DNA from: an uncultured Myxococcales bacterium
GTDB lineage: Bacteria > Myxococcota_A > Polyangia > Polyangiales > Polyangiaceae
Assembly (NCBI GenBank): GCA_937902985.1
Contig: CALFNG010000530.1
Span: forward strand, 1-51,757
Length of the DNA: 51,757 nt
Direction of reading: 5' to 3'
Shown: in pieces, positions 34,671-44,549 of the stretch
Numbering within the stretch: position 1 is the stretch's first letter
Layout: each line of letters begins with the position of its first letter
Notes under the pieces: model-generated
What the model saw: only the letters and a program-made list of their open reading frames with translations
The model's database searches: none
What the model was told of the DNA's origin: nothing
Made by a program: the position numbers and the translations under genes

Positions 34671-34958
34671 ATGACGGGCGAACATCTCGAAGCCATTCTG
34701 AAGCTGGCAGGCGCCAAGACCGAGAAAGACGGCTGGTCCACCTTGCCCGAAGGCAACGCCATGACGCTGCACGTCGCTCACGACGGCGCGAGCATGACGG
34801 TGTCGCGCATCGACGCGCTGAAGCAAGACGGAGAGCTGCTCTACGCGCGCAACCCGCGCCGCGAGCTCTTCTGCCTCGTGCGGAGCGACGTCTTCGCAGT
34901 CGCCCTCGAAGGCGAATCGAACGCGGGGAAGGTGGCCCGCCGCGCCGGCTTTGGTTAG
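34671..34958 (+). CDS. Small conserved-looking protein, unknown function
   Basis: A 95-residue protein, acidic and soluble with no membrane or signal segment. It begins T-G-E-H-L-E-A-I-L-K-L-A-G-A-K and has a likely beta-rich centre (M-T-L-H-V-A-H-D-G-A-S-M-T-V-S-R-I-D). Codon use fits the genome. Its stop overlaps the start of the acyltransferase gene, so they are likely translationally coupled. No family is recognised. Confidence 0.6.
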   Translation: MTGEHLEAILKLAGAKTEKDGWSTLPEGNAMTLHVAHDGASMTVSRIDALKQDGELLYARNPRRELFCLVRSDVFAVALEGESNAGKVARRAGFG

Positions 34959-36072
34959 CGGCTTGCCCGGCCGGGGCGTCCGCGGCGGCGCGATCGGCGG
35001 CGGCGGCGAGGGCAGCTGGTGGCTGCGGGCGCTCGCTGCCCTGGTCGCGCGCCTGCCGTGGCGTGCCTTGCGGGTGCCCGGGGCCTTGCTCGGCTGGCTC
35101 GCGGGCAGCGTCCTTCGCATCCGGCGCCGACACGTCGAGCACGCGATGCGCGCCGCCGGGCTGGCGGCTCCACCGCGCGAGGCCCGCGCGATGTACGCGG
35201 CGCTGGGCCGATCCGCGTTCGAGTTCTTGTGGCTGTCTCGCCGAGGCGCCGAGGCGCTCGAGCACGTCGTCGTCGAGCCTGCGTCCGAGGCCGTGTGGCA
35301 AGCGATCCTGGCCGAAGGGCAGGGGATCGTCCTGGCGGCGTCGCACACGGGCAACTGGGACCTGGCCGCTGTCGCCGCGGCGCGGGACGTCGAGCTCCTG
35401 GTCGTGACGAAGCACCTGAGCGCGCCTTCGCTCGATCGCTTCTGGCAGGGCACGCGGGCGCGCCTGGGGGTTCGCCTGTCGGGCGCGCGAGGGGCCATGG
35501 CCGTCGCACGCAGCGTCCTCGGGCGAGGCGGCGCCGTGGCCATGATGACCGATCAGGTGCCGGGCTCTCCCCGCCACGCCGTCGGGATCGAGTTCCTCGG
35601 CCGTCGCTGCCTCGCCGATCGCGCGCCGGCCGCCCTCGCGGCGTCCACTGGCGCGCCGCTGGTCGTCGTGGCCGCTCGAGCCGACGGGCGCGGAGAGCAC
35701 GTCGTGCACGTCCTCGCGGTGATCCGGCCGCCGCCGCGTCCTCACCGGGTCGACGCCGGGATAGACCGTGGGGTCGACCGTGGGATCGACCGTGGGGGTC
35801 GCGTGGCTCCGGGCGTCGCTCGAGACCCGCCCGTCGACGGCTCGCGACGGGCGTGGATCGCCGAGGCGACGGCCGCTTCAGGTCGGGCCCTCGACGCCTT
35901 CGTGCGCGCCCACCCGAGCCAGTGGCTCTGGATGCACCGGCGATGGAAAGGCGCGGGGGTCGACCCGCGCGGGCCCGCGGCTACACTCGGGCGGCGATGG
36001 CACCTGTCCCGCTTCCCGCCCCGCTCCAAGACCCCCTCGTCATTGCCGGACGCAGCTTCGAAAGCCGGCTGA
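34951..36072 (+). CDS. LpxL/HtrB-type lipid acyltransferase
   Basis: A 373-residue acyltransferase of the lysophospholipid/lipid A family. The catalytic motif S-H-T-G-N-W-D-L (His and Asp, about 131-137) and the later T-D-Q-V-P-G-S are typical of LpxL/LpxM, which add secondary acyl chains to lipid A at the inner membrane. A hydrophobic N-terminal segment (about 25-55) would anchor it. Around residues 271-282 there is a 12-bp tandem repeat coding Ile/Val-Asp-Arg-Gly, an unusual insertion. The start is TTG at 34951, overlapping the previous gene; its ribosome-binding site is weak. The 3' end overlaps thiG by 76 bases in another frame, so the last 25 residues may not be conserved. Confidence 0.82.
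35761..35796 (+). repeat. 12-bp tandem repeat, 3 copies, in coding sequence
   Basis: Three units of the form ATCGACCGTGGG (35761-35772, 35773-35784, 35785-35796), with one substitution each in the first two. They encode Ile/Val-Asp-Arg-Gly in the acyltransferase and keep the frame. Confidence 0.9.
35982..35987 (+). promoter_or_regulatory. Possible -10 element upstream of thiG
   Basis: GGCTACACT ends 9 bases before the thiG ATG; TACACT fits a TAnnnT -10 hexamer. If used, the thiG transcript would have a very short leader, as suggested for mlaF. It lies inside the acyltransferase coding region. Confidence 0.25.
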
Positions 36073-37903: not shown

Positions 37904-39136
37904 TCAGTCTTCGAAGGGACCGATGTCCTCGCCAGAGAGGACGAAGAACGCTTCGCCGTAGGTCTTGAGGAGCTCGAGGGCGCGGTCGAGGTCTTCCTGG
38001 GTGTGGCCGCGGGTGACGTTCACCCGGAGTCGCTCTTCTCCGATCTTCACCGAGGGGTACACGAGTGGGACCATCAGGATTCCGCACTCGAGGAGCGCGA
38101 CGTGCATGAAGATCGCCTTGACCTCGGCGCGGCACATGACGGGCATGATGTGCGTGTTGCTGGCGCCGAGATCGAAGCCCGCCGCCTTCAGGCCGTCGCG
38201 GAAATACGTCGCCTTCTGGTGAAGTTCGGTCACGAGCTTGGGGCCGTCTTCCTCGAGCATGTCGAGGATCGTCGACGCGGCGGCCACGATCGGCACCGGG
38301 AGCGTCGCGCTGAAGAGGAAGCTGCGCGCGGAGTTCTTGATGTGCTCGACGATGTCTTCTTGCCCGAAGAGAAGCCCGCCGATTCCGCCGAACGTCTTCG
38401 AGAACGTGGAGATGACGAGCGGGACGCGCCCCTGGAGGCCCATGGCCTCGAGCGTTCCGCGGCCGCTGGCGCCGAGAGTGCCCGTCGCGTGGGCGTCGTC
38501 GACGATGAGCGGAGCGTCGTAGCGCTCGCACATCTCGACGAACTCTCGAAGAGGCGCGGTATCGCCGTCGAGTGAATACACGCCTTCGCAGATCACGAGC
38601 GCGTTCTTGCGCTCGCGGGTCTTCAAGATACGTTCGAGGCTCTTCGCCGAGTTGTGGTTGAAGAACCGGATCTCGGGTCCGTTCTTGGGCACGCCCGCGG
38701 CGAGGAACGACCCGTCGAGGATGCACGCGTGGCTGTACGCATCGAGAACGAGCGTCGTGTCCTTGTCGGCCAGCGCCGCGATGGTGCCGAGCATCGCCTG
38801 GTAGCCGGTGGTGAAGGTGAGGCACTTCTCGAAGCCCATCCACCCGGCGAGGCGCTCTTCGAGTCGCACGTGCTCGATCGTCGTCGCCTGCGGCCGCGAC
38901 GACGAGAGGCCGCAGGCGTACTCGTCGACCGCGCGCTTCGCCGCCTCTTTGACCTTGGGGTGGTTGGTCAGCCCCAGGTAGTCGTTCGAGCTGAAGTTCG
39001 TGACCGGCTTGCCCTCGATGTGCGCATGGAGGCCGCCGCCGGTGTCGAAGACGCGAAAGAACGGGTACCCCTGCTTGTCTTTCGCCTGTCGGACACGCGC
39101 GACCGTGTCGTGCGCTTTCGCGTGGATCCAGCTCAC
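37904..39136 (-). CDS. Alpha-oxoamine synthase (SPT/KBL/BioF family)
   Basis: A 410-residue PLP enzyme that condenses an amino acid with an acyl thioester and releases CO2. Family landmarks include N-F-S-S-N-D-Y-L-G-L, F-T-T-G-Y-Q-A-M (near residue 108), D-A-Y-S-H-A-C-I-L-D-G, V-D-D-A-H-A-T-G-T-L-G, and S-T-F-S-K-T-F-G-G with the cofactor Lys (K247). The C-terminal E-R-L-R-V-N-V-T-R-G-H-T matches the substrate-carboxylate Arg region. Sequence alone does not separate serine palmitoyltransferase, 2-amino-3-ketobutyrate ligase and BioF; the neighbouring ketosynthase, acyl-AMP ligase and acyl carrier genes favour a lipid role using acyl-ACP. GTG 39136 is chosen because CGGAG lies upstream; ATG 39199 would overlap the upstream gene. 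It starts 25 bases after the KS-like gene. Confidence 0.88.
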   Translation of the reverse strand: MSWIHAKAHDTVARVRQAKDKQGYPFFRVFDTGGGLHAHIEGKPVTNFSSNDYLGLTNHPKVKEAAKRAVDEYACGLSSSRPQATTIEHVRLEERLAGWMGFEKCLTFTTGYQAMLGTIAALADKDTTLVLDAYSHACILDGSFLAAGVPKNGPEIRFFNHNSAKSLERILKTRERKNALVICEGVYSLDGDTAPLREFVEMCERYDAPLIVDDAHATGTLGASGRGTLEAMGLQGRVPLVISTFSKTFGGIGGLLFGQEDIVEHIKNSARSFLFSATLPVPIVAAASTILDMLEEDGPKLVTELHQKATYFRDGLKAAGFDLGASNTHIMPVMCRAEVKAIFMHVALLECGILMVPLVYPSVKIGEERLRVNVTRGHTQEDLDRALELLKTYGEAFFVLSGEDIGPFED

Positions 39137-39161
39137 CGGGGTGCTCCGAGGTTGCGATTGT

Positions 39162-40424
39162 TTATCGCGAAGCGGCGCGCATGACGAGCGCCGATGCATT
39201 GCCGTAGTACCCGAGAGCCGTGACCAGCGCGATGCGTACCTTCGCGTCGGCGCGAAGCGTGCCTCGCACCACGTGCCCGCGTCCTCGTTCGAGCGGAGCC
39301 GCGGCCGTGTCGCTTCCGGCTTGCGGGGGCGATTGCAAGTGCGCGATGGCTGCGAGCATGGCCATCGCGCCTCCGGCGCCGAGCGTCTCGCCGAGCGCGA
39401 GCTTCGGCGCCACGACGGGCGTCTCCCGCCCGACCTGTCGTTCGATGGCGATGAGCTCGGCCTCGTCGAACACGCGCAGCCCGGAGACGCCGGAGACCAC
39501 GAGGTCGACGTCGGACGGGGCGAGGCGCGCGTCGCTCAACGCCGCCGCGATGGCCTCTTCGAGCGCGCTCGGCGTAGCGTGGACGAGCGAGCCCTCGCGT
39601 TCGGGGGGCGCGAAGGACGTGCCGTAGCCCACGACCTCCGCGAGTACGGCGGCGGAGCGGGCGCGCGCGCTCCCCAGGCGTTCGAGCGCGACGAGCGCGG
39701 CGCCTTCGCCGATGCACGGGCCCTCCGTCGCCTGGATCCCCGGGCCGGGCACGCGCGAACCAGCCGCGCCCAGCCTGTGGAACGCGAGAAACAGCGCCTC
39801 GCTCATGGCCTCGGCTCCGCCGACGAGGAGCGCCTCGGCGCGCCCCTGTCCGAGGAGCACGTCGGCGCAGGCGACGGCGTCGAGGGCGCCGCAGTTTCCG
39901 TCGCTGACGCAGACGTTCACCGCGCGGAGGTCCTCCCAGATGCTCACGTACCCGGCCGCGCTGTTCGACACGGTCAAGGGAAAGCGCGACGGATTGATGT
40001 ACCGCGCGTCTTCGAGCAGGGCGACGCGATCGAGCTCGGTGATGGCCTCGAGCGACCCGTAGGCGTTCGAGCACACGAGGCCGACGCCGTCTGGACCCGG
40101 GCGGGCGCGCCCCCCCGGCGGGGCGGTGACCCACGCGCCGTCTTGCTTGAGCCCCGCGTCGTGAAGGGCGAGCCGCGCGGACACGACGAGGAGCTTCGCG
40201 AGCCGATCGAGCGACCGGAGGCCCTTGTCCCCGAGGTACCGCGTGGCGTCGAAGCCGCGGACTTCGGCGACGCGCGCCCCCGGGTAGCCCGCGGCGTCGA
40301 AGGTCTCGATGCGACCGTCGGCGCTCGGTGCCGAGGCGCCGCTGCGGAACGCCGCGAGGAACTCTTCGCGCCCGATGCCGAGAGACGACGCGACCCCGAA
40401 GCCGGTAATGGCGCGGGGCTTCAC
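39162..40424 (-). CDS. Ketosynthase-like protein without catalytic histidines (chain-length-factor-like)
   Basis: A 420-residue protein with the thiolase/ketosynthase fold (I-T-G-F-G-V-A-S-S-L-G at the start, V-G-G-A-E-A-M-S-E-A, I-G-E-G-A-A-L). The active Cys position is kept (S-D-G-N-C-G-A-L-D, C178). But the first catalytic His motif (H-G-T-G-T) is replaced by S-G-V-S-G-L-R near 311-317, and the K-S-x-x-G-H motif by K-L-A-L-G-E-T with Glu at the His position (E346). This resembles chain length factors and other KS-like partners that pair with an active KS and do not condense themselves. GTG 40424 overlaps the active KS stop (GTGA), so the two are translationally coupled, consistent with a heterodimer. 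Confidence 0.85.
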   Translation of the reverse strand: MKPRAITGFGVASSLGIGREEFLAAFRSGASAPSADGRIETFDAAGYPGARVAEVRGFDATRYLGDKGLRSLDRLAKLLVVSARLALHDAGLKQDGAWVTAPPGGRARPGPDGVGLVCSNAYGSLEAITELDRVALLEDARYINPSRFPLTVSNSAAGYVSIWEDLRAVNVCVSDGNCGALDAVACADVLLGQGRAEALLVGGAEAMSEALFLAFHRLGAAGSRVPGPGIQATEGPCIGEGAALVALERLGSARARSAAVLAEVVGYGTSFAPPEREGSLVHATPSALEEAIAAALSDARLAPSDVDLVVSGVSGLRVFDEAELIAIERQVGRETPVVAPKLALGETLGAGGAMAMLAAIAHLQSPPQAGSDTAAAPLERGRGHVVRGTLRADAKVRIALVTALGYYGNASALVMRAASR

Positions 40425-41674
40425 GCCTCGCCCTCGACCGCGGGCGTCGGGATGGGCGGCAAGAGCCCCGGCTTCGCGAATACCGTGACGGAGTTGTAGC
40501 CGCCGAAGGCGAGCGAGTTGTTGACCACGATGTCGCTCTTGCCGCGGCGGGCCACGTTCGCCACCACCTCAACGTCGCACTCGGGGTCGGGCGTCTCGTA
40601 GCCGATCGTCGGCGGGTACAGCCCCGTCTCGAGGGTGAAGATGCAGCCGATGGCCTCGAGCGCGCTCGCGGCGCCCATGCAGTGCCCGAGCATGCTCTTC
40701 ATGCTCGACACCGGCACGCGCCGGCTGCCGAAGACCTCGCGCACCACCTTGGCCTCGGCGAGGTCGTTGTGATGGGTGCCGGTTCCGTGCGCGTTGACGA
40801 AGTCGACGTCGTCGGCCGTGATGCCGGACCGCTCGATGGCCGCGCGCATCGCCACGATGCTCCCGGTCGCGTCGGGGTGGGGACGCGTGATGTGGTACGC
40901 GTCGCACGAGAGGCCGTGGCTGCGGACCTCGGCCTGGAGGCGCGCGCCGCGGCGCTCCGCATGGGCCTCACTCTCGACGATGAGGAGGCCGGCACCTTCT
41001 CCCAGAAGAAGGCCCTGGCGGTTCTTGTCAAACGGCTGGCACCGCTCGGGTGCCATGGCCGCGAGGCGGACGAACCCGCTGAACTGCAGCTCCTGCAGGA
41101 GCTCGGCGGCGCCGGTGACCACCACATCGGCGCGCCCGGCGCGGATGAGATCCGAGGCGAACCCGATGGCGTAGTTGCCCGCGGCGCATGCGGCCGGGAG
41201 GGTGAGCACCATGCCGCGCGCGCCAATGGCTCGAGCGACGTGAATCGGCAGCAAGGTCGAGCCGTACCGAGAAATCATGGCCCGCGAGACGGCTTTTTGG
41301 CCACGCAGGATCCATTCGTGGTCGAGCTCGGCGAGGATCTGCGCCTCGCCCATGGTCGTTCCGAGCACGACGGCGGTTCGAGGGCCGGCCAGCTGGGCCG
41401 GTTCGAGGCCGGCGTCTGCGATGGCCATTCGGGCGGCGGCCAGGGCCATCGCCGAGCACCGACCCATACGGCGCTGTTCCCCCTGCGTGAGATGGTCTCG
41501 AGGGTCGAAGTCCTTGACCTCCCCGGCCTTTTCTCGACCCAAGGAAACGGCGTCGAAGGACGTTACAGATGAAATTCCGCTGGCACCCGACTCGAGCGCG
41601 CGAAAGAACGCCTCGCGCCCCAGCCCGATCGAGCTGACGACACCGACACCTGTGACGAAGACCCGCGGCGACAC
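40421..41674 (-). CDS. Beta-ketoacyl-ACP synthase, FabF/type II PKS-like
   Basis: A 417-residue ketosynthase with an intact Cys-His-His triad: C163 in L-P-A-A-C-A-A-G-N, H296 in N-A-H-G-T-G-T and H331 in K-S-M-L-G-H. It catalyses decarboxylative condensation of malonyl-ACP onto an acyl-ACP or acyl-enzyme. The C-terminal F-G-G-Y-N-S-V replaces the usual G-F-G-G-x-N. Length is normal. GTG 41674 follows a TAAATAGGG stretch. It is the first gene of a minus-strand operon with the histidine-less partner and the oxoamine synthase, and diverges from the fatty-acyl-AMP ligase, pointing to a dedicated lipid pathway rather than housekeeping fatty acid synthesis. Confidence 0.92.
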   Translation of the reverse strand: MSPRVFVTGVGVVSSIGLGREAFFRALESGASGISSVTSFDAVSLGREKAGEVKDFDPRDHLTQGEQRRMGRCSAMALAAARMAIADAGLEPAQLAGPRTAVVLGTTMGEAQILAELDHEWILRGQKAVSRAMISRYGSTLLPIHVARAIGARGMVLTLPAACAAGNYAIGFASDLIRAGRADVVVTGAAELLQELQFSGFVRLAAMAPERCQPFDKNRQGLLLGEGAGLLIVESEAHAERRGARLQAEVRSHGLSCDAYHITRPHPDATGSIVAMRAAIERSGITADDVDFVNAHGTGTHHNDLAEAKVVREVFGSRRVPVSSMKSMLGHCMGAASALEAIGCIFTLETGLYPPTIGYETPDPECDVEVVANVARRGKSDIVVNNSLAFGGYNSVTVFAKPGLLPPIPTPAVEGEA

Positions 41675-41785
41675 GAACGGCCCTATTTAGCTCGGCCCTG
41701 CACATACGAGCAATGTGGGCGAACGCCGAAGGGCGGAACGACGGGGCCCGGACCTCGCTGGCCGCTTGCCAGGAGCCGGGTTGAA
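41675..41785. promoter_or_regulatory. Shared divergent promoter region of lipid cluster
   Basis: The 111 bases between the ketosynthase start and the fatty-acyl-AMP ligase start must hold promoters for both operons. GGCCCTATTTAGCTCGGCCC (41680-41699) has GGCC-rich ends and an A/T core that may be a -10 on the minus strand (TAAATA). AGGAG at 41771-41775 serves the GTG at 41786. No clear operator is visible. Confidence 0.4.
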
Positions 41786-43783
41786 GTGTATTGCGCGCCC
41801 ACCTCGAGCATGGCCGCCTCGTCCCCTTTGCCTCGTCGGCCTGGCGCGGGTGTCGCGCCGACCCTCGTCGACGCCCTTTACGCCCTCGAGGGCGACGCCA
41901 CGCGCGGGTTCGTCTTCGTGCGGCCCGACGGCACCGAGCGCCTTCGCACCTTCCAGGAGATGGCGCGCGAAGCCGCCCGGCGCGCGGCGGGCCTGGCGGC
42001 GATAGGCCTGGAGAGAGGCGACCGCGTTGCCCTCGTGATCCCCGACGGCGAAGAGTTCGTGCTGTCGCTCCTGGCGACGCTCTTCGCCGGACTCGTGCCG
42101 GTGCCGCTGAGCCCTCAGCTCTCGTTCACGAGCGCCGATGCCTATCTCGAGACCGTGGCTCACGTGGCGCGGGCGGCCGCGGCGACGGTGCTGCTGACCA
42201 CGCAGGCGGCCCGGCCCTTCCTCGAATCCGCGGTGCCGCTGACGGCGCGGGTCGCCGGGCTGCGCGCGCTCGTCACCGTCGAAGATCTCGCGACGTCGAC
42301 CGGGTCGGCGACCGAGTCGTTGCGCGTCGCCGTCACCCCCGACGACCTCGCGCTCATTCAGTTCACGAGCGGGAGCACGGCGCGTCCCAAGGGCGTGATG
42401 GTCACGCACGGGAACCTGGCGGCGAACTCCGATGCCTTCATGATCCACGGCCTCGACCGCGACCCGGCGGTCGACAAGGGCGTGAGCTGGCTTCCGCTCT
42501 TCCACGACATGGGCCTCATCGGCTTCGTCGTGGGCCCGATCTTCACACACGTGCCGTGCGTGCTCCTGCCGAGCGCGAGCTTCGCCCGGCGGCCCCGCAT
42601 CTGGCTCGACAAGATCCACCAGCACCGCGGCACCATCACCTACGCGCCGAACTTCGCGTACGCGCTGGTGTCGAAGCGCCTGAAAGGCAAGGACGTCGAG
42701 GACCTCGATCTGTCGTGCCTGCGGGTCTCGGGTTGCGGAGCGGAGCCCATCCAGGCGAGCGTCTTGCGCGAGTTTGCCGCCACGCTCGCACCGGCGCGCT
42801 TCGACGCGCGCTCGCTCCTGTCTTCGTACGGCATGGCCGAGTCGACGTTGGCCATCACTTTCACGCCCCTCGGCCAGGGCACCCGCGCCGACGCCGTCGA
42901 CGCCGAGGCGCTGACCAAGGGCCGCGCGGTGCCTCCGCGCGCCGGGTCCCGCGAAGGGTGCGTGCGCAGCGAGGGCGCGCCCAACGAGAGCCATGGCGAG
43001 GTCGTCGATTGCGGTCGCGCCTTTCCGGGGCACGAGCTGGCCATCATCGACGGCCAGGGCCGACGCCTCGAGGATCGAAGGGTCGGGCAGATCGTCGCCC
43101 GTGGGCCGAGCGTTTCCCGGGGGTATTTTCGTGAGCCCGCCCTCACGGCGGAGACGTTCAAGGCCATCCAGGGCGACACCCCCGGAGAGGCCCCCTGGCT
43201 TCACACCGGCGACCTCGGCTACACCGCGGCCGGTCGCCTCTTCGTGTGCGGTCGGGTGAAAGATCTCATCATCATCCGCGGACGAAACTACTACCCGAGC
43301 GACATCGAGTGGGCGGTGACCACGGCCCTCGGAGAGGCCTCGAGCGCCCGAAAAGGCAACGTCGTCGCCTTCAGCGTTCGCGTCGACGCTCGCGGGCGTG
43401 CCTCGGGCGCCGGCGACGCGATCGGCGTCAGCGCCATCGCTGGCGAGGAGCACGTCGTGATCTGTTGCGAAGGGCACTCGGCAGAGGTCGAGGCCATTCG
43501 CGAGGCAGCGACCGCCGTGCTGGCATCACGGTTCGGGTTGACCGTGCACGAGGTGGTGGTGGCTCCGCTCGCGTCCCTCCCCAGAACCTCGAGCGGAAAG
43601 CCCAAGCGCCGCGAGACGCGTCAGCGGTACCTCGACGGTTCGCTGCCCTCCGCGCGCCAGGCGCGCCAAGCCAGCGGCGACCTCGCACGGACTGTGCAAC
43701 CGGATCCGGGCGAGGCGCATCGAGGCGATCAGACCCCCGGCGAGAGAGCCGACGGTGCCTCGGATCTGGCCAGGGACCCATGA
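41786..43783 (+). CDS. Fatty-acyl-AMP ligase (FAAL-like)
   Basis: A 665-residue adenylate-forming enzyme that activates a fatty acid with ATP for transfer to a carrier protein. The P-loop F-T-S-G-S-T-A-R-P-K-G-V, the segment W-L-P-L-F-H-D-M-G-L-I-G, S-S-Y-G-M-A-E-S-T-L-A-I, and the hinge V-K-D-L-I-I-I-R-G-R-N-Y-Y-P-S-D-I-E are typical of the FAAL/long-chain acyl ligase branch, in which W-L-P-x-x-H-D-M-G is diagnostic. The last 60 residues are a disordered, charged extension. GTG 41786 is chosen because AGGAG lies 10 bases upstream; ATG 41810 is possible. The natural partner would be one or both ACPs that follow. Its stop overlaps a small open frame. Confidence 0.9.
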   Translation: MYCAPTSSMAASSPLPRRPGAGVAPTLVDALYALEGDATRGFVFVRPDGTERLRTFQEMAREAARRAAGLAAIGLERGDRVALVIPDGEEFVLSLLATLFAGLVPVPLSPQLSFTSADAYLETVAHVARAAAATVLLTTQAARPFLESAVPLTARVAGLRALVTVEDLATSTGSATESLRVAVTPDDLALIQFTSGSTARPKGVMVTHGNLAANSDAFMIHGLDRDPAVDKGVSWLPLFHDMGLIGFVVGPIFTHVPCVLLPSASFARRPRIWLDKIHQHRGTITYAPNFAYALVSKRLKGKDVEDLDLSCLRVSGCGAEPIQASVLREFAATLAPARFDARSLLSSYGMAESTLAITFTPLGQGTRADAVDAEALTKGRAVPPRAGSREGCVRSEGAPNESHGEVVDCGRAFPGHELAIIDGQGRRLEDRRVGQIVARGPSVSRGYFREPALTAETFKAIQGDTPGEAPWLHTGDLGYTAAGRLFVCGRVKDLIIIRGRNYYPSDIEWAVTTALGEASSARKGNVVAFSVRVDARGRASGAGDAIGVSAIAGEEHVVICCEGHSAEVEAIREAATAVLASRFGLTVHEVVVAPLASLPRTSSGKPKRRETRQRYLDGSLPSARQARQASGDLARTVQPDPGEAHRGDQTPGERADGASDLARDP

Positions 43784-43911
43784 GCGACCCATCACGAACT
43801 TTCACAGCCCGCTTCACGTCTGTGTCGCAATCGCGACAGTCAGAACCGTTCGCACCGTTCGCACCGTTCGCCCGCCTTCGCGCGAAGCGCGTAACGCCCT
43901 TGGCCGCGTAG
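43780..43911 (+). CDS. Possible 43-residue ORF, doubtful
   Basis: ATG overlaps the FAAL stop (ATGA) and reads 43 residues, including E-P-F-A-P-F-A-P-F-A encoded by the 9-bp tandem repeat, before a stop in the hairpin at 43905-43922. Codon use includes CCA, TCA, CGA and ACT, unlike the neighbours, so translation is doubtful. It may act as a leader, or mean nothing. Confidence 0.2.
   Translation: MSDPSRTFTARFTSVSQSRQSEPFAPFAPFARLRAKRVTPLAA
43845..43871. repeat. 9-bp tandem repeat, 3 copies
   Basis: ACCGTTCGC occurs three times in tandem between the FAAL gene and the first ACP gene. A 12-bp palindrome CTTCGCGCGAAG lies just after it at 43876-43887. Confidence 0.9.
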
Positions 43912-43922
43912 GTATCTACGCG
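43905..43922 (+). promoter_or_regulatory. Perfect hairpin upstream of the ACP genes
   Basis: CGCGTAG-GTAT-CTACGCG forms a 7-bp perfect stem with a 4-base loop, ending 38 bases before the first ACP start. It could be an operator or a transcript processing or attenuation hairpin in the leader of the ACP pair. Confidence 0.45.
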
Positions 43923-43960
43923 TCCGATTTCTGGACACTTCGTCAAAGGAAAGCGATTCA

Positions 43961-44242
43961 ATGCACGCGCCGATGCAGACACTCGACACGGGTGACGTGA
44001 AGCCAACCCGCGACGGCTTGCTCGCAATGTTTTGCGAGACCGCCAGCGAGGTGGTCGAGAAGGACTATCACCACGTGGTCGAATCGATGGCGATCAGCGA
44101 GCTCGCCATCGACTCGCTGGGGATCCTCGAGATCATCGGCTCGCTGGAGCGCCGGCTGCGCATCCAGATTCCAGACGAGAGCCTGTCGGGCATTCAAACG
44201 GTCCGCGACCTCCTCGACGAAGTCGAGCGACGGATCCCGTGA
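43961..44242 (+). CDS. Acyl carrier protein 1
   Basis: A 93-residue acyl carrier protein. The phosphopantetheine site is the Ser in I-D-S-L (S52), followed by the usual helix G-I-L-E-I-I-G and the acidic third helix. The first 15 residues are an extra N-terminal extension. A strong AAAGGAA lies upstream of the ATG. It follows the FAAL gene and precedes a second ACP, so it probably receives the acyl chain from the ligase. Its partner among the ketosynthases and the oxoamine synthase is not determined by sequence. Confidence 0.88.
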   Translation: MHAPMQTLDTGDVKPTRDGLLAMFCETASEVVEKDYHHVVESMAISELAIDSLGILEIIGSLERRLRIQIPDESLSGIQTVRDLLDEVERRIP

Positions 44243-44288
44243 CCGGGCGAGCGCCCACGCGACTTGAGATTCAATTAGGAGAGACGCC

Positions 44289-44549
44289 ATGTCGAACGAC
44301 ACCCTGAAGGAGCAGCTTCGATCGCTGGTCGCGGAGATCGCGGAGAAAGACGAGATTCCCGACGAGGCCTCGTTCAAGGACCTCGGCATCGATTCGATGA
44401 TGGGGGTCGAGATCGTCGCTGCCATCGAGCGCCAGTACCAGATCAAGGTCGCCGACGACGAGCTCTCGGGCTTCAAGGACCTCGTCGGCGCGTACGCCAT
44501 CGTGGTCAAGAAGCTCGAAGCCAAGGACGCGATCGCCGCCGCCGAGTGA
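44289..44549 (+). CDS. Acyl carrier protein 2
   Basis: An 86-residue acyl carrier protein with the attachment Ser S36 in G-I-D-S-M-M-G-V; Met replaces the more usual Leu after Ser. The rest follows the four-helix ACP pattern with acidic helix 2, and the tail is A/E-rich. TAGGAGAG precedes the ATG. Two ACPs side by side suggest different loads, for example a starter acyl chain on one and malonyl/extended chains on the other; this is inference. Confidence 0.9.
   Translation: MSNDTLKEQLRSLVAEIAEKDEIPDEASFKDLGIDSMMGVEIVAAIERQYQIKVADDELSGFKDLVGAYAIVVKKLEAKDAIAAAE

Follow-up and report, generated by a model that had tools for sequence, protein, structure and literature searches.

An oxoamine synthase linked to acyl carrier proteins and a ketosynthase–chain-length-factor pair as a probable replacement for serine palmitoyltransferase in Polyangiales

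The subject of this analysis is a cluster of six genes in the DNA of an uncultured Myxococcales bacterium, carried by contig C530 (positions 1-51757), which belongs to an assembly of 8.3 Mb with Polyangiaceae (Myxococcota) as named relatives; this whole stretch of 51,757 nucleotides is called the window here. In two divergent operons, the cluster encodes an alpha-oxoamine synthase (AOS), a ketosynthase (KS), a chain-length-factor-type partner of the latter (CLF), a fatty acyl-AMP ligase (FAAL) and two acyl carrier proteins (ACP1 and ACP2). An earlier note on this DNA had described the six genes, and all were found where it placed them, each with a fitting Pfam family. The features of the locus are:

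37904..39136, minus strand: AOS, proposed to form a sphingoid base (PF00155, 164 bits; catalytic residues; own clade)
39162..40424, minus strand: KS-like CLF subunit without the catalytic triad (residue alignment; KS fold)
40421..41674, minus strand: catalytic FabF-type KS (TIGR03150, 388 bits; triad and Lys invariant)
41675..41809, no strand: gap between the two operons (135 bases if counted up to the ATG, 111 up to the GTG)
41810..43783, plus strand: FAAL, AasR-related (NF006624, 462 bits)
43961..44242, plus strand: ACP1, DSL serine (PF00550, 31.8 bits)
44289..44549, plus strand: ACP2, DSM serine (PF00550, 48.3 bits)

The KS and CLF genes overlap by 4 bases. The AOS gene is real, but the ATG at 39199 from which it had been read lies 21 codons upstream of the likely start; because homologues begin at an MSWI motif (VSWI in the window), the GTG at 39136 is the most likely start, and with it the AOS and CLF genes no longer overlap by 38 bases. 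The FAAL probably starts at the ATG at 41810 rather than at the GTG at 41786, so that the divergent gap of 111 bases reported before applies only to the GTG, and becomes 135 bases from the more plausible ATG.

The active site of the KS is intact (Cys, His, Lys, His), as had been stated, and the triad and the Lys are invariant in 56 of 56 aligned homologues, while the match to TIGR03150 stays under the FabF cut-off. In the window, its coupled, KS-like partner carries Asn-Cys-Gly in the nucleophile position and a Glu for the second His. Across 92 CLF homologues the Cys is replaced by Asn in 88, the first His is lost in all and the second is replaced by Glu in 89, and no copy compared retains the catalytic Cys or either His. 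Because these residues are lost across the homologues, the second ketosynthase is of the true chain-length-factor type, and a catalytic KS adjacent to a triad-less homologue is the pattern expected of a KS–CLF heterodimer. The predicted single-chain model of CLF has the KS fold (Z 48), which shows fold and not function. The best solved relatives of the KS are 9s5h_B and the ishigamide KS 6kxd_A; KS and CLF together have as best solved relatives chains B and C of the entry pair 9s5h/9s5i, and 9s5i also contains an ACP. KS–CLF pairs elsewhere make ACP-bound chains of defined length. The combination of a catalytic FabF-type KS, a triad-less CLF and an ACP is that of type II polyketide synthase, aryl polyene and ishigamide systems; unlike these, the cluster has no ketoreductase, dehydratase or cyclase among its six genes, and the partner of the pair is an oxoamine synthase. 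A conserved ketoreductase in the gap between CLF and AOS of relatives was considered and rejected, as the genes in this gap are variable and unrelated (a lipoprotein-like open reading frame in L041, other reading frames in L052).

In alignment with serine palmitoyltransferase (SPT; its gene product here also Spt), KBL and BioF, the AOS keeps the catalytic Lys, stacking His, Asp and His of the oxoamine synthases that use pyridoxal phosphate. In the tree, the AOS of the cluster fall together in a single clade (support 100/98), to which two AOS of other clusters in Polyangiaceae are joined (100/99); this assemblage is the sister group of all sampled SPTs (100/99), which form a separate clade of their own (100/99), with KBL and BioF outside. 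Because the clade is sister to the known SPTs and not inside them, we did not file the AOS as an SPT. The two sister AOS, 44-46% identical to that of the cluster (L133:3710-11597 and L132:1486-10661, in genomes G116 and G118), both lie with a KS, reductases of the short-chain dehydrogenase/reductase type and an ACP, and L133 additionally has a phosphopantetheinyl transferase, an acyltransferase and a FabA-like dehydratase. In both clusters a type II system seems to build a chain that an oxoamine synthase then releases, and the tie of this AOS lineage to chain building may thus be ancient. In the substrate loop, a Ser stands beside the conserved Arg, as in SPT and BioF, where KBL has Val, which gives weak support for an amino acid larger than glycine. 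Residue 179 of the AOS (with the ATG at 39199 as residue 1) is Phe in 97% or more of the compared cluster AOS and Arg in nearly all SPT and in the sampled KBL and BioF; this Phe is possibly tied to the use of acyl-ACP instead of acyl-CoA.

Among the closest known arrangements is the AasR-AcpR-SPT sphingolipid system of Rhodobacteria, a proven acyl-ACP route in Caulobacter and E. coli B, where the acyl-ACP synthetase AasR charges AcpR for SPT (PMC9386255). Like that system (Caulobacter CC_1162-1165, E. coli B ECD_02850-02854), the cluster has, side by side, a FAAL-type acyl-ACP synthetase, an ACP of its own and an oxoamine synthase, and its genome also contains bCerS and CerR homologues. Unlike it, the cluster adds the KS–CLF pair and a second ACP, its synthase is of a separate clade, its ACPs show little resemblance to AcpR, the CerR and bCerS homologues lie at another locus, and the FAAL is sometimes missing from the cluster. 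The FAAL is 34% identical to E. coli AasR over 596 residues (E 2e-102), and its best solved relative is 3pbk, the aligned stretch of which carries the E. coli BL21 AasR sequence. Both ACPs have the attachment serine (in D-S-L and D-S-M, respectively).

Used as a query against GTDB contigs, the AOS returned 44 relatives, nearly all in Myxococcota. The order ACP2-(ACP1)-(FAAL) on one strand and KS-CLF-AOS on the other is found again in dozens of genomes, with proteins 45-85% identical, a conservation far above chance, and in relatives the cluster often adjoins thiE and ileS. Among 30 loci with ACP2, KS and AOS, CLF is present in 29, ACP1 in 22 and FAAL in 22; the idea that FAAL is an obligate part was rejected, since it is not at the locus in 8 of the 30 and is lacking in some near-complete genomes as well. 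In 331 genomes across the phylum, all 31 CLF matches came from the order of the window. Separate conservation of these genes in relatives had been named as grounds for rejecting the idea of a common pathway; the neighbourhood comparison found their linkage mostly kept, with the exception of a few genomes in which they are unlinked and of one genus that has AOS and ACP2 only. ACP2 is the most constant partner of the AOS, found beside it even where KS, CLF and FAAL are absent (L066, L070, L135, L069), and because that genus keeps only these two genes, ACP2 most likely serves the AOS as its carrier. Near these two genes, the AOS-and-ACP2-only group (L066:5863-12927, L069:2-5775) has, among others, an NAD-dependent epimerase, a hexapeptide acyltransferase, a MaoC dehydratase and a short-chain dehydrogenase/reductase, a set confined to that group. 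In many relatives (L041:11270-11620, L043, L045, L047, L048, L091) a third, more distant ACP gene lies downstream of AOS, between it and thiE and convergent to it; it was not found in the window.

Statements on whole genomes made here are the outcome of sequence searches. Reference sequences were AasR, CerR, AcpR, Spt and YghO of the E. coli BL21 sphingolipid cluster; yghO, which is aca in the sphingolipid set of E. coli, corresponds to CC_1154 of Caulobacter (PMC9386255). On another contig (C455), the genome of the window has a yghO/CC_1154-type bCerS homologue (38%) directly upstream of a CerR homologue (31%), and our search of this genome found no canonical Spt. A YghO-type bCerS homologue is present in 171 of 184 genomes of the order. 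In these 184, the cluster AOS occurs in 104 and canonical Spt, with the Polyangiaceae enzyme described below as query, in 64, and no genome has both; bCerS accompanies the former in 96 of 104 and the latter in 64 of 64. CLF, detected in 86 genomes, coincides with the cluster AOS in all 86 and with canonical Spt in none. Genomes without the cluster carry instead the canonical delta-proteobacterial/Bacteroidetes-type SPT of Polyangiaceae, which would hold the same genomic role, judging from the exclusion; the two synthases are about 40% identical, and the canonical one differs in having an N-terminal extension, in lacking KS, CLF, FAAL or ACP neighbours and in grouping with Sphingobacterium SPT. 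Canonical genomes have truA-spt-bCerS in 8 of 8 cases, with CerR following in some, and cluster genomes of the same family mostly have truA-PreG-bCerS-CerR, with spt missing there. An apparent Spt near bCerS in L158 and L159 was rejected, being BioF (57% to own BioF). On the bCerS tree the two states do not separate in a single split; at least two switches between them are required, and spt and cluster are exchanged at each.

Taken together, these results make it probable that the cluster is an acyl-ACP-dependent, non-orthologous replacement of Spt that feeds bCerS and CerR where Polyangiales make ceramide. A long acyl chain would be carried by ACP2, and probably by ACP1 too, supplied either by KS–CLF with the ordinary reductases of fatty-acid synthesis or by the FAAL, loading a free fatty acid; any reductive steps on the chain in the window's cluster would come from primary fatty acid synthesis. 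The AOS would condense an amino acid, of which serine is the likeliest, with this acyl-ACP and release CO2, to give a 3-keto long-chain base; that the amino acid is serine is suggested by the bCerS/CerR context and by the exclusion with spt. The bCerS homologue would then N-acylate this base, and the neighbouring CerR homologue would reduce the ketone to yield dihydroceramide. What had been proposed from the DNA of the window is supported in part: this holds for an ACP-linked oxoamine synthase together with a KS–CLF pair and a FAAL, for a sphingoid-like product and for reduction by an enzyme from outside the cluster, the CerR homologue on its separate contig being a candidate for this reductase. 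Two of the earlier proposals found no support, namely that the product stays a free alpha-aminoketone and that KS-extended chains pass directly to the synthase. By analogy with other systems, the KS–CLF pair may shape the acyl chain. A more specific version, which we hold tentatively and somewhat short of an even chance, is that KS–CLF builds or extends a chain of defined length on ACP1 or ACP2, and that the AOS transfers it straight to serine, either fully reduced or with its last beta-keto or hydroxy group still in place, so that the length of the base would be set or an oxygenation added, in a system exchanged with classical Spt at least two times in Polyangiales.

Several observations weigh against this proposal. 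The AOS lies outside the clade of characterised SPTs and scores under the NCBIfam SPT cut-offs (300 against 640, 284 against 500 and 222 against 670 bits), and the similarity to AcpR is slight (23% and E 0.015 for ACP2, no match for ACP1), these being short proteins. Of the cluster genomes, 8 gave no bCerS match, although the assemblies of some of these are incomplete, and in several genomes no CerR was found beside bCerS. The genome counts are not independent, because as few as two switches in evolution could account for the exclusion, and the nominal Fisher value for these counts is not to be taken as a probability. Furthermore, since one genus (L066, L070, L135) has AOS and ACP2 without KS and CLF, the AOS reaction can do without the pair.

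Some of these points fit other explanations as well. If the cluster made a separate, specialised aminoketone or aminolipid rather than ceramide, with a KS–CLF chain on ACP1 released by the AOS with alanine, glycine or cysteate, and with bCerS and CerR serving something else, then the position of the AOS outside known SPTs, its differing residue signatures and the specialised-metabolism look of the sister-AOS clusters would all fit. We regard this as unlikely, however, as about 100 genomes would then have bCerS and CerR without a source of long-chain base, two switches would have produced the exclusion with canonical spt by coincidence, and the cluster is widespread and kept next to housekeeping genes, unlike typical specialised metabolism. 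As for cysteate, the AOS matches SPT and cysteate-C-fatty acyltransferase similarly (228 and 214 bits), and the latter (capnine/sulfonolipid, 28eh) is likewise an oxoamine synthase of lipid synthesis at about an SPT-like distance, but the bCerS/CerR context and the exclusion of spt in cluster genomes point to serine, and we know of no KS–CLF described with that enzyme. It is very unlikely, in our view, that AOS, ACP2 and FAAL make a sphingoid base from ordinary fatty acids next to a KS–CLF pair that is a functionally separate lipid module. The genus with AOS and ACP2 alone, the genomes in which KS/CLF lie several kb away from AOS or on a separate contig, and the sufficiency of FAAL, ACP and SPT in Caulobacter would agree with such an arrangement; the constant company of CLF and cluster AOS (86 of 86 genomes, and never with canonical Spt) and the tight KS-CLF-AOS operon at most loci argue against it. 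Barely credible, finally, is an ordinary KBL or BioF in an unrelated neighbourhood. BioF is indeed the best NCBIfam model for the AOS, at 321 bits, but this is far under the BioF cut-off of 426, and the tree places the AOS outside both families. Because the genome has its own kbl (on C446, adjoining a Tdh-like epimerase gene) and its own bioF (on C465, adjoining BioD) in contexts of their own, we rejected both identities; the KBL activity that had been named as a possible refutation is unlikely for the same reason.

With regard to novelty, the earlier note had not recognised the combination as a described pathway. Because FAAL, ACP and synthase correspond to the known AasR-AcpR-SPT arrangement (PMC9386255), only the addition of KS–CLF and the proposed replacement of Spt are new. 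Within the open-licence PMC literature, we found no report that links an oxoamine synthase or sphingolipids to KS–CLF, and none of a synthase from outside the SPT clade standing in for Spt. If the replacement of Spt by the cluster is real, a ketosynthase pair of the chain-length-factor type would be tied to the synthesis of sphingoid bases for the first time, within that literature, and this would offer a testable prediction on the structure of the long-chain base. It would also affect how producers are recognised: Spt is the usual marker gene for bacterial sphingolipid producers, and would miss, or call incomplete, more than half of the sampled genomes in the order.

Two further observations concern genes around or outside the cluster. 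The genome has a second FAAL (G000:C466:5652-7502, L176), 41-44% identical to that of the cluster and with neighbours unrelated to it; a KS-containing open reading frame lies 5 kb away, and counterparts of similar identity occur in many relatives. In the window itself, 1.8 kb before the cluster and upstream of thiG/thiE, positions 34951-36072 on the plus strand hold an open reading frame that, judged by eye, resembles a lauroyl/LpxL-type lipid acyltransferase.

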